Source of the DNA: Flavobacteriales bacterium
Lineage (GTDB): Bacteria > Bacteroidota > Bacteroidia > Flavobacteriales_G > Salibacteraceae
DNA length: 64,000 nt
NCBI GenBank assembly: GCA_018660685.1
Contig: JABJJW010000004.1
Coordinates: forward strand, 62,001 to 126,000
Reading direction: 5' to 3'
The position numbers were made by a program, and so were the translations under genes. Position 1 is the stretch's first letter. Every line of letters starts with the position of its first letter. Under the pieces are notes generated by a model, which saw only the letters and a list, made by a program, of their open reading frames with translations, was not told where the DNA came from and searched no databases. Positions 38,801-53,884 of the stretch are shown here, piece after piece.

Positions 38801-38871
38801 GCACAGCCAAATGTAGAATAGATTTATGCCAAGGTGTCCTTTTATTCTAGGAATGGAAGTATTTTGGTTTC

Positions 38872-39870
38872 GTGATTCGGACCTTGATATTCCTCTCAAT
38901 TATTCTTTGTTCATTTTCAAGCCTCGCACAGAAGCTTAGTCCTATTCAGGCGGTACGAGCTATTGATGAGGCGTTTAGCGATGCCCATGTGGCTGCCATT
39001 GAAGCCAACCGCACTACTTTATACATCGATCAGTGCAACATCGCCAAGAGCTTTGTCCACGCAGATATGAATGAAAAGGCATTGGATGCTTATGCAAAAG
39101 CACTCAACATTGCCTTACCAAATAAGACACATACAACAATGTTGAATGAGGCCAGAAGAATCCTCACGGATGTGGACATGGAACTGGTTTATGATGATCG
39201 AACGAACGGGGTTGATGAAAACCATCAAGCTGTCAAACGTGAAACGGCCTTTGCTCAAGAGAGTTACACGCAAGGTGAAGCGGCAGATAAGATCGATGAG
39301 ATGTTGTCTTTTTTACACGAGAACACGGTACGGGATCCAGCGCGGAAATCACAACTCATAGGTGACTTGAAATATTGCAGAGAGCTAATCCTTGATGGTG
39401 AGTTGGAAGAAGCTAGCAACGAGTACCACGCAACCATCATTCAGTATTTAGACCCACGTTGGACAAGTCAGTTGCTGGGCGATATTGGCAATGTTTTCGA
39501 CAATACTGTTGTAACATTTAGACCCGGAAAGGACAACACCGTCAACGCCATGAATAGTGACATGAACAGCGGCTCAAAAGGGGCAAATGCTGAAGGTAAA
39601 ATGGACGCTGCAGACATGAGCAATACTGCTCAAGCCAAGGGTGGTAGTGACTACATCGCTCTACCAACCGAAGCTGATCCTATCCTTTACTTTAAAGAAG
39701 AAATGGAAGGCCGTGTGATTGAACGAATTCGACTTATGGAAGATCATGAGTTGATGACGTACAAAAAGGTCAAACACAATTGGGGTAAAACATTCTACTT
39801 CATCAACGAAGAGCCATCAACCATTACAGAATGGCTGAGGATCCAGGAATTGTACCATAATATGAAGTGA
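38872..39870 (+). CDS. Exported protein, unknown function
   Basis: A 332-residue protein starting with GTG (reading MIRTLIFLS) and carrying a signal peptide (TLIFLSIILCSFSSLAQ). The mature part is mostly helical and starts with TPR-like segments (LYIDQCNIAKSFVHADM, EKALDAYAKALNIALP). A Gly/Asn/Met/Ala-rich linker follows at about residues 225-260, then a folded C-terminus (KVKHNWGKTFYFINEEP). No family recognised. It is followed by the DCC-family gene after 22 bp. Confidence 0.7.
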   Translation: MIRTLIFLSIILCSFSSLAQKLSPIQAVRAIDEAFSDAHVAAIEANRTTLYIDQCNIAKSFVHADMNEKALDAYAKALNIALPNKTHTTMLNEARRILTDVDMELVYDDRTNGVDENHQAVKRETAFAQESYTQGEAADKIDEMLSFLHENTVRDPARKSQLIGDLKYCRELILDGELEEASNEYHATIIQYLDPRWTSQLLGDIGNVFDNTVVTFRPGKDNTVNAMNSDMNSGSKGANAEGKMDAADMSNTAQAKGGSDYIALPTEADPILYFKEEMEGRVIERIRLMEDHELMTYKKVKHNWGKTFYFINEEPSTITEWLRIQELYHNMK

Positions 39871-39891
39871 TTCTGAATTACCTTCACTTTC

Positions 39892-40296
39892 TTGGATCAA
39901 GAGCGTGTAATACTATTTGACGGCGTTTGTAACCTCTGCAACGCTTCAGTTCAAATTCTTATTAGTAAGGATAAAAACCGGTCGTTGAAATACGCCTCCC
40001 TCCAATCTCCGTATGGTCAAAGACTCCTAGAGCAGCAAGGTTGGTCCCAATCCGTTTTCGACTCATTTGTCTACAAACGAAACGAGCAAATTCATCAGAG
40101 ATCATCGGCTTTTTTAATGGTGATGAAAGATCTAGGAAGCTGGTACCAATTGCTCTACGGCTTCATTATTATACCCAGCGTTCTTCGCGATCCATTCTAC
40201 AACTTAGTAGCTAAATTCAGGTATCGAATTTGGGGAAAGAGAAGTGAATGCTATGTCCCAACTCCTGAATTGGAATCGCTGTTTTTAGAAGACTAG
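39892..40296 (+). CDS. DCC family thiol-disulfide oxidoreductase-like protein (DUF393)
   Basis: A 134-residue protein with the family signature LFDGVCNLCNASVQ: Asp-Gly followed by a CxxC motif within the first 20 residues. Later come FASLQS-like segments (YASLQSPYGQRLL), RSSAFLMVM and a C-terminal YRIWGKRSECYVP. The family is named for the DCC motif and is predicted to exchange thiols; the biological role is unknown. The start is TTG 39892. The stop overlaps the convergent epimerase gene by 4 bp. Confidence 0.85.
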   Translation: MDQERVILFDGVCNLCNASVQILISKDKNRSLKYASLQSPYGQRLLEQQGWSQSVFDSFVYKRNEQIHQRSSAFLMVMKDLGSWYQLLYGFIIIPSVLRDPFYNLVAKFRYRIWGKRSECYVPTPELESLFLED

Positions 40297-41285
40297 CTCT
40301 TCAAATTTTCCCAATACCATTTGATGGCACGTTCAAGGCCCTGACGCAAGTCGTATTCCGGTTTATAACCGAGAATGGTACTTGCCTTGACAATGCTCGC
40401 GAGAGAATGCCTTACATCTCCTATTCGCTCGGGCCCATACTTTACATCAACATCGGCTATGGCTGGATCAAACTCAGATAGCAATTACTTCAACACCTCA
40501 ACCAATTCATCGAGATTGGTGCTTTCTCCATAAGCCACATTGTATGTCTCGTTCAACGCCACAGGGTTAGTTGATAAGGCTGCAATATGATTTGCCTGGA
40601 TTACATTATCGATGTATGTGAAATCACGCGATTGAGTGCCGTCTCCATGAATGGTCGGGGACTCGTGATCAATGAAGTGTCGAACAAACTTCGGAATAGC
40701 CGCAGCATAAGCGCCGTCCGGATCTTGTCTTGCACCAAATACATTGAAGTAGCGGAGTCCAATGTTTTCCAATCCATAGAGATCTCCAAATACCCGTGCA
40801 TATTGCTCGTTTACTCCCTTGCTTACTGCATAAGGAGAAAGTGGTTTCCCAATTTTTGCTTCGACTTTAGGAAGACGCTTTTCATCACCATAGACCGAAC
40901 TGCTGGTCGCGTAAACAAAACGCTGAACCCCTTCATCTCGAGAAGCAACAAGCATATTCAAGAAGCCATTGACGTTGACTTCATTTGTGGTGATTGGATC
41001 TTTGATCGAACGAGGAACAGACCCTAATGCCGCTTGATGAAGAACATACTGAGCACCTTTCACTGCCAGTTTACATGATTCAAGATCTCGGATATCTCCA
41101 TTGATGAACTGATAGTTTGGATGATCCTTAAACTCATTGACATTCCGTTCAAAACCAGTCGAGAGGTTGTCCAGAGCTACGACCTTATTATCGTGCTGGA
41201 GAAGGTCCTCTACTAAACTGCTTCCGATGAAACCTGCGGCGCCCGTGACGAGCACATTTGAATTGGTAATTTTTCTTTCGAGCAT
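40293..41285 (-). pseudogene. UDP-N-acetylglucosamine C4-epimerase (WbpP-like), in-frame stop
   Basis: A short-chain dehydrogenase-type sugar epimerase. From 41285 the frame encodes [15 protein letters not shown] (NAD loop), [27 protein letters not shown], the catalytic YAVSK pair and a substrate region ([20 protein letters not shown]) that closely follows WbpP/TviC. At 40485-40487 an in-frame TAA follows ELVEVLK. Reading on in the same frame gives the missing ~63 residues (LLSEFDPAIADV, YGPERIGDVRHS, WYWENLKS) to the true stop at 40293. GAA to TAA is the simplest change. The truncated product would lack the C-terminal substrate-binding cap. Confidence 0.85.
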
Positions 41286-41337
41286 TACAGTCTTATTAAT
41301 CTTTCAAAGTGGCTTGTCCTTTCATAACTCTCATTTC

Positions 41338-42876
41338 TTATCTCGCAATCGATGTTGCTCTCATTTCTCGAATCACCGTTACCTGTACTTGGCCCGGATA
41401 GGTCATTTCTTCTTGGATCTTTTGGGAAATCTGAAACGCCAGATCACTGGCTTGTTCATCCTTCACTTTTTCCGCAGAGACAATTACGCGAAGCTCTCGT
41501 CCTGCCTGAATTGCATAGCTCTTCTCTACCCCAGGATATTCAAGAGGAATTCCCTCTAACTCTTGAATTCGTTTGATATAGGACTCCATGATTTCCCGGC
41601 GAGCACCTGGCCGCGCGCCGCTGACTGCATCGCAGACTTGAACGATGGGAGATATGAGATTTGTCATTTCGATTTCATCATGGTGCGCTCCGATCGCGTT
41701 GCAGACATCACCATTCTCTTTGTATTTCTCAGCCAGTTTCATACCCAAAATTGCATGCGGCATTTCGCTCTCTTCATCAGGTACTTTCCCAATGTCATGC
41801 AACAAACCCGCTCGCTTGGCCACCTTAGCATTAAGACCAAGTTCAGAAGCCATAATTGCACACAAATTGGCCACTTCCCTGCTGTGTTGCAGAAGGTTTT
41901 GCCCATAAGATGAGCGAAACTTCATTCGCCCGACCATCTTGATCAACTCTGGATGGAGCCCATGAATGTTCAAGTCTATACACGTGCGTTTTCCCGTTTC
42001 AACAATTTCTTCATCCAACCTCTTTTTGGTCTTCTCAACCACCTCTTCAATTTTTGCTGGATGGATCCGGCCATCCGTAACCAATTGGTGCAAGGCAAGT
42101 CGAGCAATTTCTCGTCTTACCGGATCGAAGCACGACAAGACGATGGCTTCAGGAGTGTCGTCCACAATTATCTCAACACCCGTTGCGGCTTCAAGTGCGC
42201 GAATGTTACGGCCTTCTCTACCGATTATGCGTCCTTTGATTTCATCTCCTTCAATGTTGAAAACCGAAACTGCGTTTTCTACTGCTTGTTCCGTCGCAAC
42301 CCTTTGTATGGTCTGGATCACAATCTTCTTGGCGTCACGGCTGGCATTGATTTTTGCCTCGTCTACGATATCCTTGACCAAACTCATGGCCTCGGTTTTG
42401 GCCTCAGCGACCAATTCATCCTTCAATTGATCCTTCGCTTCTTCAGCAGTGATATTTGCGATGGACTCAAGTTGTTTCACTTGCTTAGAAGTCAATGAAT
42501 TGAGTTCGATTTGCTTCTTGTCCATGGCTTCACGCTGAAATTCTAAACTCTCTCTCAGTTCATTCAGCTTGTGATCCTTTTTTTTGGCCTCCCCTAGTTT
42601 GTTGTTGAGCGAATGTTCCTTTTGTTTGACTCTTGACTCTGATTCTCCAATCTTCCGATTCTTATCCTGAATGACCTTTTCATGGTCTTCTTTCAATTGC
42701 AGGAATTTTTCTTTGGCTTGCATGAGCTTTTCCTTTTTAATAAGCTCACCGTCTTTCTGGGCCTCTGATATGATTGAATTGCGCTGGGATTGTAGGGTAC
42801 GCCGCTGAACGATGTACATCAACGTGGCACCAAGAGCCAAAGCCCCAATGATCAATCCTATAGTTATAAATTCCAT
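41338..42876 (-). CDS. rny: Ribonuclease Y
   Basis: A 512-residue membrane-anchored endoribonuclease that starts mRNA decay. It has an N-terminal membrane helix ([20 protein letters not shown]), a long coiled coil (about 25-190), a KH domain (about 200-265; [15 protein letters not shown]) and an HD domain with the catalytic motif LLHDIGK, plus IGAHHDE. The C-terminus is complete. In this group RNase Y is usually close to zapA, as here, separated by the region that likely encodes 6S RNA. Confidence 0.95.
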
Positions 42877-42905
42877 TTCAATGCATTAAAAATCCCGCAC
42901 AGACC

Positions 42906-43080
42906 ATGGTTGTTGTAACCTCAATAAAAGCTAAAATTTGGGGTCAGCCGGTTTCTCGCAAACGTCCAGTGTCTCTACCTAAGGCAGAAATCTCACGCAA
43001 AACGTGATAAACAGGCCTGCTTTTGAATAACACTAAGTCCAACCCCAGCGAAATAAGTGTTCAGGTTACAAACAGTTTGG
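42906..43080 (-). ncRNA. ssrS: 6S RNA, probable
   Basis: The 240-bp gap between zapA and rny has no open frame but can fold as a long rod on the minus strand. Outer arms TTGTAACCTGAA (43060-43071) and TTGAGGTTACAA (42913-42924) pair over 12 bp with one mismatch. A second stem pairs GCTGGGGTT (43041-43049) with GACCCCA (42940-42946). The centre ends in a TCACG-TTTTG-CGTGA hairpin. Two outer stems, an internal bubble and an apical hairpin are the design of 6S RNA, which binds RNA polymerase holoenzyme. From memory, Flavobacteria carry 6S RNA at this zapA-rny position. The exact ends are estimates. Confidence 0.68.
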
Positions 43081-43116
43081 TCCATACGGGACTAAGCTTT
43101 AAAGAACGTTGGGTGA

Positions 43117-43401
43117 TTAGGATGAAAGCGCAGAATCGATCTTCTCGATGAACTTTTCCAGGGAGCCAGCCAGCTGGTCATTCTGAAGTTCCTCTTTGCC
43201 ATGACCTTTTTCTAAAGTCATTTCTAAGGCAAGCATCGCCAGCAAGTCAGTATTATCCTTAACAGCAAAGCTGGAACCCAAATCAGTGATCCGCTCATTA
43301 ATATATTTAGCTGCCTTTCGGACTTCCTCCTCTTCGTCGCGTTGTACCGTTAGCGGGTAAACACGATTAGCAATTGTCACCTTTATAGAGAGTTCGCTCA
43401 T
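43117..43401 (-). CDS. zapA: Cell division protein ZapA
   Basis: A 94-residue FtsZ-ring-stabilising protein. The N-terminal beta strands (LSIKVTIANRVYPLTV) are followed by RDEEEEVRKAAKYINERI and a long helix with LAMLALEMTLE. The length and layout fit ZapA, and the position between a coiled-coil gene and the 6S RNA/rny region supports this. It starts 4 bp after the end of the upstream coiled-coil gene, so the two are co-translated. Confidence 0.9.
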   Translation of the reverse strand: MSELSIKVTIANRVYPLTVQRDEEEEVRKAAKYINERITDLGSSFAVKDNTDLLAMLALEMTLEKGHGKEELQNDQLAGSLEKFIEKIDSALSS

Positions 43402-43405
43402 TCAA

Positions 43406-43723
43406 TTAGTCGTTCAACAGCGCTATGCACCTGTCAATTTCCCGTACAATCTGGCTGATCTTTCGCTTCGACTCAGACACTGTTCCCTCATCACCTTTAA
43501 TCGCCGAAGCCATTTTCAACACTTTATTTTCTTCACGCATACGCTTCAGGTCTTCATTCAACCCCTCCATCTTATCCTGAAGTTTCTGCTTTTCTTGTTC
43601 CAACGAATCAATTTTATGTTGATACCCATCACTGGTTCCGATCAACGAATCGATCTTTTTACCAAGGGTTTCAACAGTTGTGCTTAAATCTTTCACATTC
43701 AATTGATTAATGGGAGCTTGCAA
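43406..43723 (-). CDS. Small coiled-coil protein upstream of zapA
   Basis: A 105-residue protein that is almost entirely coiled coil (VETLGKKIDSLIGTS, HKIDSLEQEKQKLQDKMEG, LKRMREENKVL), with a C-terminal helix KRKISQIVREIDRCIALL. This gene regularly precedes zapA in Bacteroidota and looks like a ZapB-like or ZapA-binding division factor, though this role is inferred. It ends 4 bp before zapA. The start ATG is at 43723. Confidence 0.78.
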   Translation of the reverse strand: MQAPINQLNVKDLSTTVETLGKKIDSLIGTSDGYQHKIDSLEQEKQKLQDKMEGLNEDLKRMREENKVLKMASAIKGDEGTVSESKRKISQIVREIDRCIALLND

Positions 43724-43831
43724 TGCTTATCCACTGCCTTTCAAAGATTGATAAAAATTATAAACCGATTGTTTAAAACAGGATTTTTATTTGGTCAATT
43801 CAGCTAGGAGCTGGAATTACATTCGCACCAG

Positions 43832-45517
43832 ATGATTCGGTATCTGGTATTCTCAATATTGCTGACCCTGGTTTTAACAAATTCCTTTGCTCAAGAGTTT
43901 AAGGTCATAAATCCACTGCCTATTGAGCCCGCGCTTTCTGGAAACTATGGTGAGCTAAGAAGCAACCACTTCCACGGTGGGCTCGATCTAAAAACGGGTG
44001 GTCAGGAAGGGCTCGATGTACTAGCTGCTGGAGGTGGATATGTATCACGCATCAAGATTTCACCTTGGGGTTACGGCAAGGCTGTGTACATCGATCACCC
44101 AGAAGGATATACGACAGTTTATGGACACTTAAAATCCTTGAATGATACCATCGATCGCTATGTAAAACGCATTCAACGTGAACAAAAATCATTTGAAATT
44201 GATGTATATCCAGGTCAATCAGATTTACAGGTGAAAACGGGAGATGTCATTGCTGCTTCAGGGAACACTGGCGGTTCAGGTGGGCCTCATTTGCATTTTG
44301 AAGTGCGCGAAACAAAGACCGAAGTTCCAAGAAATCCATTGCTCCTTGGATTTCCGCTATCGGACACGAAAAGACCTCACATTGAAGCAATTGCCCTTCG
44401 ACCGCTTGATGAAACTTCGCGTGTGAACGGCTCAACCAAGTCATTTCGCACAAGAATAAATGGATATACTTCTCCGAAAGTAGCGGCGGCTCAACCAATT
44501 AAGGTCAATGGCACATTTGGCGTTGAGGTCCGGGGATATGATCAGCAGAACGGGTCAGGAAATCAGAATGGGATCTATAAGCTGAATTGCTGGGTGGATG
44601 ATGAACTCATTTCCCAATTTACAGCTGACAGCGTGAGCTTTGCGCTAAGTCGTCATCTAAATGCCCTCATAGATTACAACTACTACTATTATAATAAGAG
44701 CAGGTACATTCGGTTGTATCGACTGCCTGGAAATCGACTGGAGAATATCGATTACAAAAACGATGGCAAGATTTCGCTCTCCAACGGTACTCACCAAATA
44801 AAGGTTCAGGCCTTGGACGTTCATGGCAATTCATCCGAAATAAACTTCTCAGTCTTAGTCGATGATCCAGTTACTCAATTGGCAGAGCCGGTCGAAAATA
44901 TTCCGTGGGACATTGACTACTTATATGAAAGCAAGAATGTCAAGCTCCACTTTCCTGCCTCTACCATGTACGAGTCGCTTCCTCTAGACATAGAAGAAAA
45001 GCAAGCCGCTCCTTCTCAACTGAGCAACGCGGTCAAGGTTCTACATCCAAGTAATCCGGTGCAACATCCATATGAAATCCAGATCAAGCCAAACATTGAA
45101 GACACATCGTCTCAATACATCATCGCCCAGATTAACTCCTCTGGACGCCCTTCAAGAGCCCTTGACACCAAATGGGAAGGAGGTTGGCTAAGAGCGGAAT
45201 CGAGATCGTTTGGGACCTTTAAAGTATTCAGAGATGATGACACTCCCACGATTACAAGTCTGAACTTTAAAAATGGAATGAGTTGGTCTTCTGGTAGAAT
45301 GAAGTTTCGGGTGCGCGATGGATTTTCAGGAATCTATCGTTACGAGGCCTTATCAAACGGGATTTGGATAATAATGGAATACGAGCCTAAACAAGATTTA
45401 ATGTTTATCGACGTTAGTGATCTACCCAATTCTGATGAAAAACAAACATTATCAATTCGAATCACGGATAAGGTTGGAAATGTTGCCACATTTGAAGGAT
45501 CATTTTATCATCGATGA
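43832..45517 (+). CDS. Exported M23 family metallopeptidase (LytM-like)
   Basis: A 561-residue protein with a signal peptide (YLVFSILLTLVLTNSFAQ). The LytM/peptidase M23 domain is at about residues 40-180. Zinc ligands are visible as HFHGGLD (His48 and Asp52) and GPHLHFEVR (His155), so it should be an active peptidoglycan endopeptidase. The C-terminal ~380 residues are beta-rich with no named domain (WDIDYLYESKNVKLHFP) and probably provide surface or substrate binding. It overlaps the next gene by 4 bp (ATGA), making a four-gene run with the TonB receptor cluster. Confidence 0.9.
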   Translation: MIRYLVFSILLTLVLTNSFAQEFKVINPLPIEPALSGNYGELRSNHFHGGLDLKTGGQEGLDVLAAGGGYVSRIKISPWGYGKAVYIDHPEGYTTVYGHLKSLNDTIDRYVKRIQREQKSFEIDVYPGQSDLQVKTGDVIAASGNTGGSGGPHLHFEVRETKTEVPRNPLLLGFPLSDTKRPHIEAIALRPLDETSRVNGSTKSFRTRINGYTSPKVAAAQPIKVNGTFGVEVRGYDQQNGSGNQNGIYKLNCWVDDELISQFTADSVSFALSRHLNALIDYNYYYYNKSRYIRLYRLPGNRLENIDYKNDGKISLSNGTHQIKVQALDVHGNSSEINFSVLVDDPVTQLAEPVENIPWDIDYLYESKNVKLHFPASTMYESLPLDIEEKQAAPSQLSNAVKVLHPSNPVQHPYEIQIKPNIEDTSSQYIIAQINSSGRPSRALDTKWEGGWLRAESRSFGTFKVFRDDDTPTITSLNFKNGMSWSSGRMKFRVRDGFSGIYRYEALSNGIWIIMEYEPKQDLMFIDVSDLPNSDEKQTLSIRITDKVGNVATFEGSFYHR

Positions 45518-46137
45518 AGTACTTAATCGCACTCTTTTTAGCACTAGTTACTCTAAGTAGCTTTTCTCAGTCCAACAAAAAACTCGTTCAACTATCTGGA
45601 GTCGTTGTCTCCGGTGACAGTTTATCCCCAGTACCCTTCACAAGCGTTCTGGTAAAAGGAACAAGCAGAGGAACGATTGCCGACTATTTCGGCTTTTTCT
45701 CACTCGTCACAGGCATTTCAGATACGATTGTCTTTTCTAGTGTAGGATATGAAAAGTCGGAGTTTGTCGTTCCAGACACTTTGTCCCATTCTAGATATTC
45801 GGTGATACAGCTTCTTAAAAAAGATACCATCCTTCTGGATCCGCAGATCGTGTACCCGTGGCCGAGCAAAGAACAATTTAGAGAAGCTTTTCTAAGTCTG
45901 AATGCCCCAAAAGATGACTACGACAGGGCATTTGAAAACATGACTCGAGAAGACGTGAGGCTAGCTTTACAAGGTGTTCCGATGAGCGCTCAAGGAAATC
46001 ACAATTACACGGTACAGCGTGAATACACAAGGCTGTACAATCAAGGCCTTATGCCTCAAATCAGCTTGCTTAATCCGCTAGCTTGGGCTCAATTTATTGA
46101 GGCCTGGAAGAAAGGAGATTTTAAAAAGAAAGAGTAA
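45514..46137 (+). CDS. Exported protein with carboxypeptidase-regulatory-like domain
   Basis: A 207-residue protein with a signal peptide (YLIALFLALVTLSSFSQ) and a CarboxypepD_reg-like fold at about residues 25-105 (LSGVVVSGDSLSPVPFTSVLVKG in part; FGFFSLVTG). These modules bear the look of the plug-adjacent domain of TonB receptors but occur alone as here. The C-terminal ~95 residues (EQFREAFLSLNAPKDDY) are helical and unrecognised. Coupled to the M23 gene by a 4-bp overlap and followed by the TonB receptor. Confidence 0.82.
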   Translation: MKYLIALFLALVTLSSFSQSNKKLVQLSGVVVSGDSLSPVPFTSVLVKGTSRGTIADYFGFFSLVTGISDTIVFSSVGYEKSEFVVPDTLSHSRYSVIQLLKKDTILLDPQIVYPWPSKEQFREAFLSLNAPKDDYDRAFENMTREDVRLALQGVPMSAQGNHNYTVQREYTRLYNQGLMPQISLLNPLAWAQFIEAWKKGDFKKKE

Positions 46138-46140
46138 GCA

Positions 46141-48636
46141 CTGAACAGGATAGCGCACATATTGCTTTTCCTAGGGTTGATTTCCATTAGTGATTTCAGC
46201 TATTCGCAGGCCCTTGTTAAGGGGGAATTGGTAGACGAAACTGGCAAACCAATCGAATCGGCTACAATCGGTATTCCCGGAACAACCACAGGCGTGTCTT
46301 CCAATAAGAATGGAAAATACGAGCTCACCATACCAAGCGATCAAGAAGTCCTCGTCGTATTCCGACATCTTTCATTTGAAGAATACAAAAAGGCGATCAA
46401 TGCTAGGCAGGGCGAAACAGTTGAGCTCAACCCGAAATTAAAACGTTCTGCTTTCGAGTTTGGTGAATTTGAAGTAGAGACTGAACGGGATCGAGACAAG
46501 CCAATGCGGAAAATTGATGTGGAGATTGCTAAGTTCAATCCGTCTGTAACCGGTAGCGTCGAATCACTCCTCCCTGCACAAGCTTTGGGCGTCAGTCAAA
46601 ATAATGAGTTGAGCTCTCAATACTCCGTTCGAGGGGGAAACTTCGATGAAAACCTCGTGTATGTAAACGGAATTGAGGTCTATCGTCCGTTCCTCATTCG
46701 AAGTGGACAGCAAGAAGGCCTAAGCTTCATCAATAGTGACCTTGTTTCAGATCTCTCATTCTCATCTGGCGGGTTCGAATCCAAATATGGAGACAAGCTC
46801 AGCAGTGTATTGGACATCACGTATAAGAAGCCTGAAAAGTTTGCAGGATCGGTTTCGGGCAGCTTGCTCGGTGGAAGCATTCACATCGAAAACGCAAGTG
46901 ATAATAAACGATTCACTCAAATTCATGGAGTTCGATACTACTCCAATCAGTATTTACTTGGAAGCCTTGACACAGAAGGCGATTACCGTCCGAGGTTTAT
47001 TGATTACCAGACGTTTTTGACCTATGGGATTAATACCGAATGGGAATTATCCTTTCTCGGAAACTACTCTCAGAATTCCTATCGTTTCGCACCTGAAAAT
47101 CGAAAAGCATCATTTGGCACGGTGAGCAGTGCATTGGGATTGAACGTCTTTTTTGACGGACAAGAGATTGACCAATATCAGACAGCGTTTGGCGCTATGA
47201 CCCTTCAATGGACTCCGCGCTATGACCTTAAAATGAGGCTCATTGGTTCGGCATTTCAAACGACGGAGGAAGAGACTTTTGACATTGAGGCATTTTATCG
47301 CCTGTCCGAATTGGAGACAGATTTAAGCAAACCCTCATTCGGCGATGAAACTTTTGTCATCGGAGTTGGTTCGTACTTGGATCATGCAAGAAACTACCTC
47401 GACGCAATCGTTTCGACTGTGGAATTTCAAGGTGAGTTCTTCCCAAATGACCACAAATGGTTGTGGGGAGCAAAATATCGTCGTGATGACATTCAAGACA
47501 AGTTGAGCGAGTGGTCGTTGGTAGACTCGGTTGGGTATTCAGTTCCTTATAACGGCTCTTCCGTTGCGCTTTTCGAGACGATCAAGTCTGACAACCGGAT
47601 CGCTACCAACCGTGTGATGGGATACTTGCAGCGAGATTGGTTTTTTGACCTTGACTCAAACGAGCTTTCAATATCAACCGGGATTCGGTTCAACTATTGG
47701 GACCTGAATAACCAAACAACCATTAGTCCACGGATTACTGCTGCCTTTAAACCCAACTGGAAATCTGATTGGTTATTTAGAGCAAGTTGGGGCTATTACC
47801 ACCAACCTGCATTCTATCGCGAGATGCGTGATCTGTTCGGCGCTGTCAATACGGAGATTAGAGCTCAGACTTCCATCCACTATGTAGCCGGTGCAGATCT
47901 CAATTTCGAGATGTTCGAACGCCCTTTCAAGTTTGTCGGCGAAGCGTATTACAAGCAGTTGAGCGACATTATCCCTTACGAGCTTGACAACGTCCGGATC
48001 CGGTACTATGCGAAGAACAATGCCAAAGGTTATGCAACAGGAATTGACTTAAAGCTCAATGGTGAATTCGTCAAAGGAGTAGAATCCTGGGTAAGTATTT
48101 CAATAATGAAAACCGAAGAAGACTTACTTGACGACTTTTACACGCTGTACTTGAATGCTGCCGGTGACACCATCGTTCGAGGTGTGACAGCCGACCCTGT
48201 AAAGGTTGATAGCCAAGTGGTCTACCCCGGTTACGTTCCACGACCGACGGATCAGCGCGTGAATTTCGCCTTGACTTTTCAAGACTACGTTCCAACTATG
48301 GAACAACTCAAAGTTCACTTGAGCTTGCTTTATGGCACAGGATTACCAACAGGCCCGCCAAGCTACACTCGCTGGAAGGATGTATTCAGAATGGCCCCTT
48401 ACCGTCGGGTAGACATTGGTTTCTCTGCTCGCCTCAAAGCAGAAGGTCAAGAGTCCAAAGTTGCGCTTCTCAACCATCTTCAATCTGCTTGGTTGACGCT
48501 TGAAGTATTCAATCTCCTGGCGGTCAACAACACCATCTCATACCTTTGGATCAAGGACAGTCGAAATATTGAATATGGCGTCCCCAACTTTCTAACAGCT
48601 AGAAGGGTTAATTTGAAACTGATCGTGAGGTTTTGA
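46141..48636 (+). CDS. TonB-dependent receptor with N-terminal carboxypeptidase-regulatory domain
   Basis: About 831 residues of outer-membrane transporter. A CarboxypepD_reg domain (VKGELVDETGKPIESATIGI) is followed by a plug domain (SSQYSVRGGNFDENLVYVNGIEVYRP in parts) and a 22-strand-type barrel ending in RRVNLKLIVRF, a canonical C-terminal aromatic. Start: the standard ORF begins with TTG 46162, but CTG 46141 gives MNRIAHILLFLGLISISD, a complete signal peptide with a positive n-region, and is preferred here. The substrate is unknown. It overlaps the following lipoprotein gene by 4 bp. Confidence 0.85.
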   Translation: MNRIAHILLFLGLISISDFSYSQALVKGELVDETGKPIESATIGIPGTTTGVSSNKNGKYELTIPSDQEVLVVFRHLSFEEYKKAINARQGETVELNPKLKRSAFEFGEFEVETERDRDKPMRKIDVEIAKFNPSVTGSVESLLPAQALGVSQNNELSSQYSVRGGNFDENLVYVNGIEVYRPFLIRSGQQEGLSFINSDLVSDLSFSSGGFESKYGDKLSSVLDITYKKPEKFAGSVSGSLLGGSIHIENASDNKRFTQIHGVRYYSNQYLLGSLDTEGDYRPRFIDYQTFLTYGINTEWELSFLGNYSQNSYRFAPENRKASFGTVSSALGLNVFFDGQEIDQYQTAFGAMTLQWTPRYDLKMRLIGSAFQTTEEETFDIEAFYRLSELETDLSKPSFGDETFVIGVGSYLDHARNYLDAIVSTVEFQGEFFPNDHKWLWGAKYRRDDIQDKLSEWSLVDSVGYSVPYNGSSVALFETIKSDNRIATNRVMGYLQRDWFFDLDSNELSISTGIRFNYWDLNNQTTISPRITAAFKPNWKSDWLFRASWGYYHQPAFYREMRDLFGAVNTEIRAQTSIHYVAGADLNFEMFERPFKFVGEAYYKQLSDIIPYELDNVRIRYYAKNNAKGYATGIDLKLNGEFVKGVESWVSISIMKTEEDLLDDFYTLYLNAAGDTIVRGVTADPVKVDSQVVYPGYVPRPTDQRVNFALTFQDYVPTMEQLKVHLSLLYGTGLPTGPPSYTRWKDVFRMAPYRRVDIGFSARLKAEGQESKVALLNHLQSAWLTLEVFNLLAVNNTISYLWIKDSRNIEYGVPNFLTARRVNLKLIVRF

Positions 48637-49400
48637 TAAATAAGACGGCAACATTCATTCTCATCTTGCTGTTCATCGGCTGTGCTGAGGACATTCAAGT
48701 GAATAACTCAGCATCCGAGGGGACACTTCAGCACTTTGTAGACGAATCGGTCCAGTCCGTTTCTATCGGTGTATTCAGCCTTCAAACTGGAAATCACCCG
48801 AGCTTCGAAGAGGAAGTGGATAACCATCCGGTTTTAGCAATTCTGGACGCTCCGGATTCAGCATATGACTTTCGCTTGTATTTGAGTGACTCCCTCCGAT
48901 TCCCAGATAGCCTGGGAACATTTCAAAGGATCCTCATGGATGTAGATCCAGAAATGAGGGGCATATTCAGACTTTTTAGACTGCGGGACATCAAACAAGA
49001 CCGGTTCATGAGAGCAACCTATCGAGTTGGGGATAGTATTCGAATGAGTGTACCCATTACACTCCGAAATGGAAGCCTACGAACAAAGGATATCGACGCT
49101 ATCATGGTCGAAGAAACTGAGGAGACGCTCAATCTTAATTGGGAAAGCGTTGCTGGGTCGGATTTATACCTCGTTACCATCAAAGATGCATTTGGAGACA
49201 TTGTGAGCTCGCTTTATACATATCGAAACTCCTTTCGGTTTTACGATCTGCGTTTCGCGACTCGAAACCTCTTATCCACGACTATCGACCCCAAACTTGA
49301 AGCGGGAAGCCCATATGAAATTGAAGTGATGGCGATATCTAGGAGAGGTTGGATCAATGCTATAGGCAATCGAAAAATGACATTAGGTTATGGCCACTAA
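48633..49400 (+). CDS. Lipoprotein downstream of the TonB receptor
   Basis: A 255-residue lipoprotein (lipobox LFIGC, Cys17) starting with TTG inside the TonB receptor stop. The first ~150 residues are unrecognised; the C-terminal ~100 (NLNWESVAGSDLYLVTIKD, YEIEVMAISRRGW) look like a fibronectin type III fold. Its position right behind a CarboxypepD_reg TonB receptor is where DUF4249-like surface lipoproteins are often found, but the DUF4249 signature is not visible. Substrate capture for the receptor is plausible. It overlaps lipB by 11 bp. Confidence 0.75.
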   Translation: MINKTATFILILLFIGCAEDIQVNNSASEGTLQHFVDESVQSVSIGVFSLQTGNHPSFEEEVDNHPVLAILDAPDSAYDFRLYLSDSLRFPDSLGTFQRILMDVDPEMRGIFRLFRLRDIKQDRFMRATYRVGDSIRMSVPITLRNGSLRTKDIDAIMVEETEETLNLNWESVAGSDLYLVTIKDAFGDIVSSLYTYRNSFRFYDLRFATRNLLSTTIDPKLEAGSPYEIEVMAISRRGWINAIGNRKMTLGYGH

Positions 49401-50052
49401 GTTCATTGTTGAGGATCTTGGTAAATGCTCCTATTCAGATGCGCTGGTCATCCAGGAAGACCATTTCTATGGCGCCATCAAAGCCAAGCAATCCGGAGAA
49501 ACCTCCTTACACCCGAATCGATTAATCCTCGTCGAGCACGATCCCGTTTACACGTTGGGAAAATCAGGTGATGTTCAAAACCTCAAAGTTGATCCTGTCA
49601 CTGTTGGAGCCACTTTTTTCAAAACAAGTCGTGGCGGAGACATCACCTATCACGGACCAGGGCAGATTGTAGCGTATCCCATTTTTAATCTCGAGCGGTT
49701 TGAAATTGGACTAGCACAATATATCTGGAACCTCGAAGAAGCGGTCCTCAGAGTAATTTCCAAATATGGACTGAAAGGTGAAAGAATCGAGGAAGCCAGT
49801 GGTGTGTGGCTCGATGCCGATCAAGATTCAGTGCGTAAAATTTGTGCAATCGGTGTAAAAGCTAGTCGGTATGTAACCATGCATGGATTGGCATTCAATG
49901 TGAACACGGACTTAAGTTACTTCGAACATATTATTCCCTGTGGCATCGATGACAAGGACGTTACATCCATGGCCAAAGAATTAGGTAAAGAAGTAGACTT
50001 TGATATTGTAAAAACCCTCTTGGTCGAAGAATTCGAAGCTGTGTTTACTTAA
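49390..50052 (+). CDS. lipB: Octanoyltransferase LipB
   Basis: A 220-residue enzyme that moves octanoyl from acyl-carrier protein to lipoate-dependent proteins. The conserved stretch SRGGDITYHGPGQ is at about residues 79-91, with the catalytic Lys157 (IGVKASR) and Cys184 (IIPCGI). The length and motifs are complete. LipA is not in the window. Its ATG lies 11 bp before the end of the upstream lipoprotein gene and its stop overlaps the AsmA gene by 8 bp, so the locus is densely packed on both sides. Confidence 0.94.
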   Translation: MATKFIVEDLGKCSYSDALVIQEDHFYGAIKAKQSGETSLHPNRLILVEHDPVYTLGKSGDVQNLKVDPVTVGATFFKTSRGGDITYHGPGQIVAYPIFNLERFEIGLAQYIWNLEEAVLRVISKYGLKGERIEEASGVWLDADQDSVRKICAIGVKASRYVTMHGLAFNVNTDLSYFEHIIPCGIDDKDVTSMAKELGKEVDFDIVKTLLVEEFEAVFT

Positions 50053-52792
50053 AAAGACCTTTCAACTTTTTCTTAGCCTCTTCTGCCGCCTTCTTTTTCG
50101 CTTCTTCCTCTAGCCTTTTCTTCTCGGCTTCTACTTTTCTCTTGGCCTCGTCAGTTCTTCGTTTTGCTTCTTCCTCGGCTTTATTTTTGGCTTTATCAGC
50201 TTCATTCTTGGCCTTCTGCTTCGCTTTATCGGCTTCTTCCCTAGCCTTCTTTTCAGCGTCCGCTTTAGCATTGTCCAATTCTTCCTTCGCTTGGTTCTCC
50301 AACTCGTCCTTCTTCTTATTGAGCTCGTCTTTGGCGCGGTCTTTCAAATCATCAGTAATGCTACCAGCAGTTGCGCCACCAATGCTTGGTGTGATTTTGG
50401 GGTCAGTTGAGGTGCCTTCAATCTTTAAATCAACATCAACACGTTCTGGCATCGAAGCGTTTGTTCCAGCGGTAGAATTGACTTGTGAAAAGAGCCCGCC
50501 GATGGCTTTGTTTGCAGCGCCACCGAGAAGCTCAGAAGGAACATCCAAATTGAGCATGTAGTCTAGACTTTGGTCGAATCCATGACTTCCACCGATCACC
50601 GATGGAATCTCCTTTCCGATGACAAAGTCACTCGGCTCGATGACTACCCTTCCATTCTCAAAGCGGAATTCATACTCGCTGTCATCAATATCAAAACTCT
50701 TCAAGCCATCATATTTGATCGCGTCAGCCGCTTTTTCAAGAACTGGCGGTTTATCAATCGATGCATTTCGCGTGGTAAGTAATCCACCTCCATCAAGTGT
50801 ATTGTAGAGAGGATCCATGTTGGCATCCATTTTTCCTTTAATCTTCATGGAAGAGGAAAATTTGCCGGTCGCATACTTCATGATTGGAGCCATTTTTTGG
50901 GCCATATCAACGTATTCATAAGTCTTAGGGATGTCCCATCCAATAACGTCAAGATTGAAGTCAAAATCAGGCTGCACCGGATTTGGAGTAGCATAGAATC
51001 CACTCATCGTGAGCGAACCATCGAGAAGTTGCATCGCCAATCGATCTAAACTGAGTTTTTGATCTCGCATCACAACACTTCCTCGGGTGCTGATGATTTC
51101 GAGGTTATCATAAATCATTTTTTGAATGGAGGTATTCAACACGAAGTCGTAACCAGCAGGCACCTCAAAAACACCATATGATTCATCCTCCTCGTCCTCT
51201 TGCTCTTCCTCCCCTTCTTCGGTCATGAATTCATTTAAATCCAATAATTGAGATGAGAAATTGAATTGACCGGAGAGCGGAGCATTTGCGACATACCATT
51301 CGACAATGTTGTTGACTCGTCCCGTCATACTGATGTCCGACTTTCCAACCTTCATATCGAACTGTGTGAGCTCAGCATATCGGGGAGAAAAATTCAATGA
51401 CATCTGCTCTATCAATGTAGCATATGGCAATTCTGGATCTTGGTAATCGAAATTGCTCAACTTCAGACTTCCTCCAGCATGAAAATCCGCGTAGCGCTCT
51501 TGATCCAAAGCGCTTTGATTTCCTTCAAGATTGATGTCCGATTCAATTTGCCCAGTCAAACTTTGTCCTTCTTCTAAAGGAATCACATCCTTCATACTCT
51601 CCAGGTCTAAATTCATTTTGATGTTTGCATCGATGAACGGGTCGCTGATTGGAGTCCTCATGTGGAGGCTCATGTCCACTGGGTTATTGGCTAACTCAAC
51701 ATGAAACTTGTTGAGATCGACTATAGTATTGTCTTCACTTCCTCCAGGATTCTTGACATGGAGGTCAATAGCAATGTTCTCAGCCGCCTTTGGCAGATCT
51801 GGATAATGAAACATGGCATCAGACACGGTCAAATTGAGTCCAAATGCTGGAAGCTGTTCTCCAACCATTCTACCCTTCGCATGGCCATCAAGTGCAAATG
51901 AACCAGCGGTCTCGACATCTAAAAAATCGGTTAGATAGATCGCAGGTATAAGCGAAAGAATACTCTTAAATGTTGTTTCCGTGGTGTTGAATGTCAAATC
52001 AAGATCGATTGGACCCGTTTCCTCATCTGGCATCGCAACCGAACCATCAAAACCAAGTTGGAGAGCATTTAATCGAACGTAGTTCTCGACAAACTCAAAA
52101 CGCATGTTGGGCAGATTCATGTTCATGTCAAAATCAGACTCAAGCTCTGTGCGATTGAGGTAATTCATGCCTTCCATTTCAAAGGTCAACTCATCTACCC
52201 AAGTATAGGTGCGGAGTAGAAAATCATCTTGCGTAAAGTCACCACTTCCTTCATGGGTCAAGTTTTTAAGCTCTGCATACATATCGCCTGATCGATCGTC
52301 GTAGATAAGCGTGGCATTTCGAATGTAGTATTCCCTGAGACCTACGCTGAAAGAAGTCTCTTCGGTAGATTCCTCCGTCGCTTCTTCTTCCGAACTTGGA
52401 GCAATGTCATAGTTAGCCGTACCATCTTCAAGCACGATCACGTGCAATTTTGGACTGACTAAGCCAATCGTATTGACTTGAATTGTTCCTCCATTGATAA
52501 CGCTCATTAAGTCAAGGCTCAGCTTCAATTCTTCGATGTCGGCTAGCGCAACTCCACTAAATTCTTCCCTGCCTATGACGCTAAGCTCGTCTACGGTCAG
52601 CGTAAAATCAGGAAAACTCTCCAAAAGCGATAAGCCAATATCACCAAACTTCACATCAGCATTCAAATTGGCATTCGCCTGGTCTTCAACCAGCACAATC
52701 AAATCGTCCTTGAATAAGATTGGGAGAACAATGGCTGATCCAATCACCAGCACAATGAGAGAGACGACTACGAGTAAAACTTTACGAAGCAT
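50045..52792 (-). CDS. AsmA family envelope protein with a long charged C-terminal helix
   Basis: A 915-residue protein with one N-terminal membrane helix (VLLVVVSLIVLVIGSAIVLP) and a long beta-rich periplasmic body typical of AsmA-like bridge proteins that move lipids between the membranes (VKFGDIGLSLLESFPDF; SLKLSNFDY; GGGLLTTRNASI). The last ~100 residues are an Ala/Lys/Glu/Asp helix with repeating AKxxADKAKxKA patterns, predicted to be a free single alpha-helix or coiled coil. This tail is unusual and its function is unknown. The stop overlaps lipB on the opposite strand. Confidence 0.85.
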   Translation of the reverse strand: MLRKVLLVVVSLIVLVIGSAIVLPILFKDDLIVLVEDQANANLNADVKFGDIGLSLLESFPDFTLTVDELSVIGREEFSGVALADIEELKLSLDLMSVINGGTIQVNTIGLVSPKLHVIVLEDGTANYDIAPSSEEEATEESTEETSFSVGLREYYIRNATLIYDDRSGDMYAELKNLTHEGSGDFTQDDFLLRTYTWVDELTFEMEGMNYLNRTELESDFDMNMNLPNMRFEFVENYVRLNALQLGFDGSVAMPDEETGPIDLDLTFNTTETTFKSILSLIPAIYLTDFLDVETAGSFALDGHAKGRMVGEQLPAFGLNLTVSDAMFHYPDLPKAAENIAIDLHVKNPGGSEDNTIVDLNKFHVELANNPVDMSLHMRTPISDPFIDANIKMNLDLESMKDVIPLEEGQSLTGQIESDINLEGNQSALDQERYADFHAGGSLKLSNFDYQDPELPYATLIEQMSLNFSPRYAELTQFDMKVGKSDISMTGRVNNIVEWYVANAPLSGQFNFSSQLLDLNEFMTEEGEEEQEDEEDESYGVFEVPAGYDFVLNTSIQKMIYDNLEIISTRGSVVMRDQKLSLDRLAMQLLDGSLTMSGFYATPNPVQPDFDFNLDVIGWDIPKTYEYVDMAQKMAPIMKYATGKFSSSMKIKGKMDANMDPLYNTLDGGGLLTTRNASIDKPPVLEKAADAIKYDGLKSFDIDDSEYEFRFENGRVVIEPSDFVIGKEIPSVIGGSHGFDQSLDYMLNLDVPSELLGGAANKAIGGLFSQVNSTAGTNASMPERVDVDLKIEGTSTDPKITPSIGGATAGSITDDLKDRAKDELNKKKDELENQAKEELDNAKADAEKKAREEADKAKQKAKNEADKAKNKAEEEAKRRTDEAKRKVEAEKKRLEEEAKKKAAEEAKKKLKGLFK

Positions 52793-52861
52793 GGAAAATG
52801 ATTTATGTCAAAAATTTCGTTCAATGAATGTTGAAACCCGAGAAGCAGTGAATTTATTGTA

Positions 52862-52911
52862 CCAAAATAAAACACCCTCCACTTCCGACAGAAATCGGAA
52901 TGCGAAGGGTG
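52862..52911 (-). terminator. Rho-independent terminator after the lipoprotein gene
   Basis: On the minus strand an inverted repeat pairs CACCCTTCGCATTCCGA with TCGGAAGTGGAGGGTG around a short ATTTCTG loop (52873-52911), followed by TTTTATTTT. It lies just past the stop of the lipoprotein gene at 52931 and precedes the AsmA start, so the two genes are separately transcribed. The plus-strand side carries nine A, so it could also stop antisense transcripts only poorly. Confidence 0.75.
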
Positions 52912-52930
52912 AAAAAAAAATCTCGTGAGA

Positions 52931-53788
52931 TTATGCTAGGAGCAATCCTTTCAACCGTGAAAGCTTATTCTCAAGTTCAGATAGATCATCTTGAGAAATG
53001 CTCTCCACATCGCTAAAACCTGCGTAAAACATCATAAGTTCTTCAACAGCCTCGTACACATCAGGACTTATTTCTGAATCGATTTCCCCTAAAACATTGA
53101 TCAAATCTGAAGCGTGTCTTTTTTGAGAAAATATCCCTTCATAGACCGGTCGAGTGTCATCATTCAACTCTCTTCCTTGTAATATCCCTGCCGCAATAAC
53201 TTGGCTTTCAACCCAACTACCAAGAAAGATCTCGGTCGCATTTACGAAACGCTCATTGTCAACCATGTACTGATCCATCTCGTTGAAAGCATGGTCCATC
53301 ATTTTGACAAATTTCTCCTGGCTGGTCGTATTCTCTTCGAAGTTGGTCGTGATCGTTCGATCAAACACTTCACCCGCGCCGAGCTCGTTCGACAAACCTC
53401 TACAGACGTTGAAGTAGTCCAATGTTTTCTGATTTTGGTGCTCATAAGCCATGAACCCCATATCGGTCATAAAAACTCCATAGCCATATGCCCTCGCCAT
53501 TGCAGTCGAGAGATCATGCACCCCGCTAGTTGGCGTCAGCTTGATTTCATCGGTATACAAGTTCACCTGCTCAATGATGTGGAATGTCTCCAATGGAGAA
53601 GGCAGGTTCGCAATCATTGTATGAAACTTGAAGTCAGCAAGTGGATTCACTCCGCTTTCGGCTGGTTGCTCTGTAACCTCATCGAGGGCAGTGTCATCAC
53701 CAGAATGATCATGCTTTTCTTCACTATCCCCACAAGATGCAAGGAGGAAAACACCAACGAATAGGATCGCAAAGTGTCTGATTTTCAT
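52931..53788 (-). CDS. Lipoprotein, unknown function
   Basis: A 285-residue lipoprotein with lipobox LLASC (Cys19), followed by a His/Asp-rich linker (DSEEKHDHSGDD) and an all-helical body (LSTAMARAYGYGVFMTDMGF; EKFVKMMDHAFNEMDQYMVD). No known family was recognised; similar helical lipoproteins of this length are widespread in Bacteroidota. ATG 53788 gives the proper signal peptide. It is divergent from the tetR-efflux operon with a 173-bp intergenic region and is followed by a terminator. Confidence 0.78.
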   Translation of the reverse strand: MKIRHFAILFVGVFLLASCGDSEEKHDHSGDDTALDEVTEQPAESGVNPLADFKFHTMIANLPSPLETFHIIEQVNLYTDEIKLTPTSGVHDLSTAMARAYGYGVFMTDMGFMAYEHQNQKTLDYFNVCRGLSNELGAGEVFDRTITTNFEENTTSQEKFVKMMDHAFNEMDQYMVDNERFVNATEIFLGSWVESQVIAAGILQGRELNDDTRPVYEGIFSQKRHASDLINVLGEIDSEISPDVYEAVEELMMFYAGFSDVESISQDDLSELENKLSRLKGLLLA

Positions 53789-53884
53789 AGGTATTTGAGT
53801 TTGAGTGAACAACAAATATAGTCGACTGCCTATTCTATCAAAATGGATTTTATCGAAGCTGGAGTATTATCCAAATTGTTAAAA

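Follow-up and report, generated by a model that had tools for sequence, protein, structure and literature searches.

6S RNA, generally about 160-200 nt long, imitates a promoter and is believed to sequester RNA polymerase in idle cells. The E. coli gene, ssrS, stands in the order zapA-ssrS-fau, and a zapB-zapA-ssrS arrangement is frequently found among beta- and gamma-proteobacteria (PMC7641849). 6S RNA has also been detected in Flavobacterium psychrophilum (PMC9723704), and experimentally in Bacteroides thetaiotaomicron, with two classes of pRNA (PMC7366714). Among the Rfam models, RF00013 is one that does not by itself define 6S RNA, and the Bacteroidota 6S RNA is modeled separately as 6S-Flavo (RF01685).

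The locus described here lies in a stretch of 64,000 nucleotides from a Flavobacteriales bacterium (the window), in a gap of 240 bases (42877-43116) between zapA and rny, both of which are encoded on the minus strand. The minus strand of this gap folds with -73.4 kcal/mol (z -3.35), a value reached by none of 200 shuffles, and the plus strand showed no unusual structure (z -0.68). On the basis of a closing stem followed by a U-run, the 5' end of the RNA is predicted near 43092 and the 3' end within the U-run near 42888. The original prediction of a 6S RNA at 42906-43080 was therefore too short, losing nearly all of the outermost stem, and is corrected to approximately 43092 to 42888 on the minus strand. 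With these predicted ends, the length of the RNA is close to the general range of 6S RNA. The closing stem and U-run would form a 3' end resembling an intrinsic terminator. A simple terminator scan returned no hit, the loop that separates the two arms of the closing stem being far larger than the scan allows.

In order to examine the conservation of this structure, gap sequences were taken from 108 loci. The gaps of 12 close relatives and the window copy align well (13 sequences, A1), and RNAalifold applied to this alignment returned a closing stem and a second stem, together with a bubble, an inner stem and a long arm. An alignment of the core was then made by MAFFT without structure information (A2), in which 22 of the 46 base pairs are changed on both sides and 95.1% of cells are paired, compared with 84.3% after shuffling. 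Slid controls paired in 32-51% of cells, a comparison that somewhat favors the structure as it was derived from A2 itself. The covariation score of A2 was matched by none of 500 shuffles. Chance folding of AT-rich intergenic DNA, which the lack of an Rfam match described below might suggest, is thus refuted by the covariation and, in view of the fold z-scores as well, has next to no likelihood.

A covariance model built from the 13 sequences of the close relatives, including the window copy (R1), found exactly one match per genome in 38 of 60 relatives, nearly all of them adjoining zapA. A set of 44 matches (A3) provided the basis of a widened model (R2), which, applied to a sample of 295 genomes from across the class, identified the RNA in 72. 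Additionally, a separate set of 42 R2 matches not used in building R2 was aligned (A4); double changes were present in 41 of 46 pairs and 85.5% of cells were paired, compared with 63.3% for shuffled and 34-46% for slid controls, although this alignment was fitted to the model and its counts lean towards the structure. Covariation in relatives, the absence of which had been named beforehand as an argument against a 6S RNA, was therefore found in both the close relatives and the separate set. The features of the locus are collected in Table 1.

Table 1. Features of the zapA-rny region in window coordinates, with the support for each. A1-A4 are alignments and R1 and R2 covariance models, as described in the text.
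Feature	Position	Strand	Support
zapA	43117..43401	-	Pfam ZapA 64.3 bits, cut-off 23.8
rny (RNase Y)	41338..42876	-	TIGR03319 635 bits, cut-off 454
Coiled-coil ORF, possibly ZapB-like, upstream of zapA	43406..43723	-	PF06005 ZapB 23.2 bits, below the cut-off of 31.5
boxA-like GTTCTTT	43101..43107	-	9 nt past the zapA stop; identical 7-mer in own 16S leader
Predicted 6S RNA, ~205 nt	42888..43092	-	-70.7 kcal/mol, fold z -4.28; closing stem and U-run in 13/13 close relatives
Conserved core matched by R1 and R2	42915..43069	-	R1 141.9 bits (window copy in R1 training set); R2 131.7 bits
Outermost closing stem, 5' arm GUCCCGUAUGGACC	43079..43092	-	Partner of 42892-42905; several pairs of the stem show compensatory changes in A1
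Outermost closing stem, 3' arm GGUCUGUGCGGGAU, then U-run 42888-42892	42892..42905	-	CGGG and U-run kept across relatives
Second outer stem, 5' arm GUAACCUGAA	43060..43069	-	Helix 1: 99.7% of cells paired, double changes in 6/7 pairs in A3
Second outer stem, 3' arm AGGUUAC	42915..42921	-	Consensus structure
Central bubble, 5' strand CACUUAUUUCGC	43048..43059	-	Unpaired in consensus structure
Central bubble, 3' strand AAUUUUAGCUUUUAUUG	42922..42938	-	Consensus structure; pairing of a few bases possible
Inner stem closing the bubble, 5' arm UGGGGU	43042..43047	-	Pairs with ACCCCA 42939-42944; double changes in 5/6 pairs in A3
Apical hairpin 1 of forked apex UCACGUUUUGCGUGA	42993..43007	-	Double changes in 6/6 pairs in A2 and in A4
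Apical hairpin 2 of forked apex UUUCUGCCUUAGGUAGAGA	42972..42990	-	Double changes in 5/7 pairs in A2 and 6/7 in A4

The consensus structures, with covariation, show the general shape of a 6S RNA, namely a closing stem, a large central bubble and a long inner or apical stem. The rod with two outer stems and a central bubble anticipated by the original prediction was recovered in full and is backed by covariation. However, the single apical hairpin it proposed is replaced by a three-way junction with two covarying hairpins. A forked apex of this kind was also observed in most of the Bacteroidota lineages examined outside Flavobacteriaceae.

No Rfam family was matched at the gathering score anywhere in the window, and at E<=10 only chance matches to unrelated eukaryotic families appeared, with nothing relevant in the gap; the same search of 20 close relatives likewise gave nothing relevant. 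A search of the whole genome with RF00013 gave no match at E<=10. The window RNA did not reach the gathering threshold of RF01685 (85 bits) and had no match to this model at E<=10. One RF01685 match of 18.5 bits on another contig of the same genome was dismissed as noise, and these two models thus revealed no rival 6S RNA in the genome.

The connection to 6S-Flavo comes through intermediates. Sub-threshold RF01685 matches were present in three relatives (33.9-36.8 bits, E 0.001-0.005), where they coincide with R1 matches (G052:C12:39085-39212, which is L027; G041:C599:6759-6887; G049:C28:22793-22939). From the opposite direction, RF01685 scores 92-106 bits in the zapA-rny gap of Aquimarina (L082), Wenyingzhuangia (L076), Winogradskyella (L104, L107) and Paenimyroides (L105), and R2 matched 5/5 of the RF01685-positive Flavobacteriaceae loci in register and no more than 4 bases from the Rfam boundaries, with modest scores (25-37 bits, E 1e-4 to 0.06). 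Because the two models coincide in the three relatives and R2 matches the five RF01685 loci, the window RNA is homologous to members of Rfam 6S-Flavo. This membership is transitive, as no Rfam match was found in the window or in the 20 close relatives, and by the rule of Rfam the RNA is not a member of RF01685 but a homolog of its members. The absence of an Rfam hit in the window, one of the outcomes named beforehand as refuting, would by itself have told against the original prediction.

RF01685 fits the reduced-apex form of Flavobacteriaceae, and this probably accounts for its failure to recognize the forked form. Genomes carrying the forked-apex form would seem to have no 6S RNA if annotated by Rfam only, and the alignments made here provide a working model for its detection. 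Forked-apex 6S RNAs of Bacteroidota may have been described earlier.

The RNA is conserved and structured, has the shape of 6S RNA, occurs once per genome and is homologous to 6S-Flavo. On the basis of this homology, the 6S architecture and the covariation, the assignment as 6S RNA is supported, and the gap very probably harbors the single ssrS gene of this Bacteroidota genome, whose 6S RNA is a 6S-Flavo homolog with a forked apex. Binding of RNA polymerase by the window RNA would be expected from its homology and architecture.

Two genomes each contain two 6S-like copies, one with L178 (G086:C93:5501-5655) and the other with L179 and L180 (G117), which recalls the 6S-1/6S-2 pair in Bacillus. 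Closely following zapA are 77 of the 86 homologs, a share that is biased because the set was partly gathered via zapA and rny. Separately, a Bacteroidales small SRP RNA (RF04183) was identified near zapA-rny in one Bacteroidales MAG (L071, 1807-1914, minus strand).

As some 11 nt separate the terminator-like stem from the start of rny and most of the homologs are found in front of rny, the RNA could instead be a cis-acting rny leader, either an attenuator or an RNase Y autoregulation site, that is rod-shaped by chance and is not 6S RNA. However, several genomes carry homologs remote from both rny and zapA (L160, L177-L181, L183-L185), second copies exist in two genomes and the RNA is homologous to 6S-Flavo, making such a leader highly improbable. 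A dual role as 6S RNA and rny leader is possible.

The interval between zapA and the RNA contains a conserved element, (A)CGTTCTT(T)AAA, in nearly every homolog. With related sequences weighted equally, GTTCTT[TAG] was found no more than 130 nt upstream in 70 of the 77 zapA-linked homologs, compared with 1/77 on the opposite strand and 2.9% of windows drawn at random on the same strand of these loci. The element occurs in 2 of 35 gaps of less than 120 nt, which have no room for the RNA. The sequence GTTCTTTGAA, which is GTTCTTT followed by GAA, was present in 10/10 16S leaders from six genomes, including that of the window, whose 16S leader reads GTTCTTTGAAG compared with GTTCTTTAAAG before the RNA. 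The element therefore has the same sequence as the rRNA-leader boxA of its own genome. Similar to the rRNA boxA (the NusB/S10 site), GTTCTTT runs into an A-rich sequence, as it does in the 16S leader of this genome; unlike it, the element precedes a predicted 6S RNA gene. The use of boxA outside rRNA is known in Proteobacteria for suhB (PMC5725501). Our literature search found no paper linking boxA with 6S RNA, and a boxA-like element before a 6S RNA looks new. In many families outside the genus, a small variable hairpin follows the boxA-like element and precedes the 5' arm of the RNA (for example L127, L032 and L023).

Since GTTCTTT precedes an RNA whose 5' end is predicted, it might be part of a promoter or a processing site of a 6S RNA rather than a boxA. 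However, the spacing between it and the RNA is highly variable, whereas it stays near the zapA stop; the same 7-mer with GAA recurs in all the 16S leaders examined, and there is no resemblance to the Bacteroidota -7 box, TAnnTTTG (PMC9723704). Free-standing copies usually lack GTTCTT[TAG], which is present in 2/9, and more often have a TAnnTTTG box nearby (5/9 compared with 8/77 zapA-linked copies). We consider a promoter or processing site unlikely on these grounds, while still deserving attention. The two copies in G117 lack a boxA and are preceded by TAnnTTTG boxes. The minus strand of 38816-53812 contains no exact match to the TANNTTTG promoter box, and hence none lies upstream of the window copy; a sigma-70-type promoter scan likewise found no promoter. 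Across the whole window, the box TANNTTTG of Bacteroidota promoters is strongly underrepresented, with 16 matches compared with 42.5 expected (sd 5.9) and at least as many matches in 100/100 shuffles.

For the zapA-linked copies, the simplest reading of the element as a boxA is that the RNA arises by read-through and is protected by boxA once translation stops at the end of zapA. The window RNA would thus be transcribed from the zapB-like and zapA genes and not from a consensus promoter of its own, and the boxA-like element just past the zapA stop would recruit NusB/S10 and shield the untranslated transcript from Rho. From what is known of the family, the RNA would mimic an open promoter, its bubble would bind the housekeeping RNA polymerase and repress transcription, and copying of the bubble into short pRNAs by the polymerase would lead to release. 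From its anatomy, the RNA would terminate at the closing stem with the U-run, which may also attenuate rny a short distance further on. We tentatively propose, at somewhat less than even confidence, that many Bacteroidota produce 6S RNA as part of a zapA-6S-rny transcription unit subject to boxA antitermination of the rRNA type. If true, an RNA that silences RNA polymerase would share the Nus-factor machinery with ribosomal RNA, and its terminator would gate the expression of RNase Y. Provided that the boxA-like element works, the synthesis of 6S RNA would be tied to the rRNA antitermination machinery.

Among the known systems, 6S-Flavo (RF01685) shares with the window RNA the zapA-rny site and the bubble with its flanking motifs (CUCAACA, GCAgGCC, CCCCAA and a GGAGUUU-like sequence). 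The Flavobacteriaceae copies differ in mostly having one short loop or one hairpin where the window copy has two apical hairpins. The B. thetaiotaomicron 6S RNA comes from the same phylum and, as stated above, has been detected experimentally together with its pRNAs. In family f16, the R2 homologs (L183 and L184, in G054 and G249) have as their neighbor not zapA but a serC-like gene (phosphoserine aminotransferase, as judged by its sequence), so the 6S gene has another site in that lineage. With E. coli ssrS (RF00013), R2 gave trivial stem matches only, RF00013 was likewise without a match in the window genome, and homology to the proteobacterial 6S RNA is not supported by these comparisons; the 41 nt spacer between zapA and ssrS in E. 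coli contains no GTTCTTT-like element. E. coli ssrS resembles the window RNA in its rod with a central bubble and its position directly 3' of zapA. The parallel with E. coli noted in the original prediction is therefore real, with fau downstream in one case and rny in the other, and the linkage of 6S RNA to zapA occurs in two phyla.
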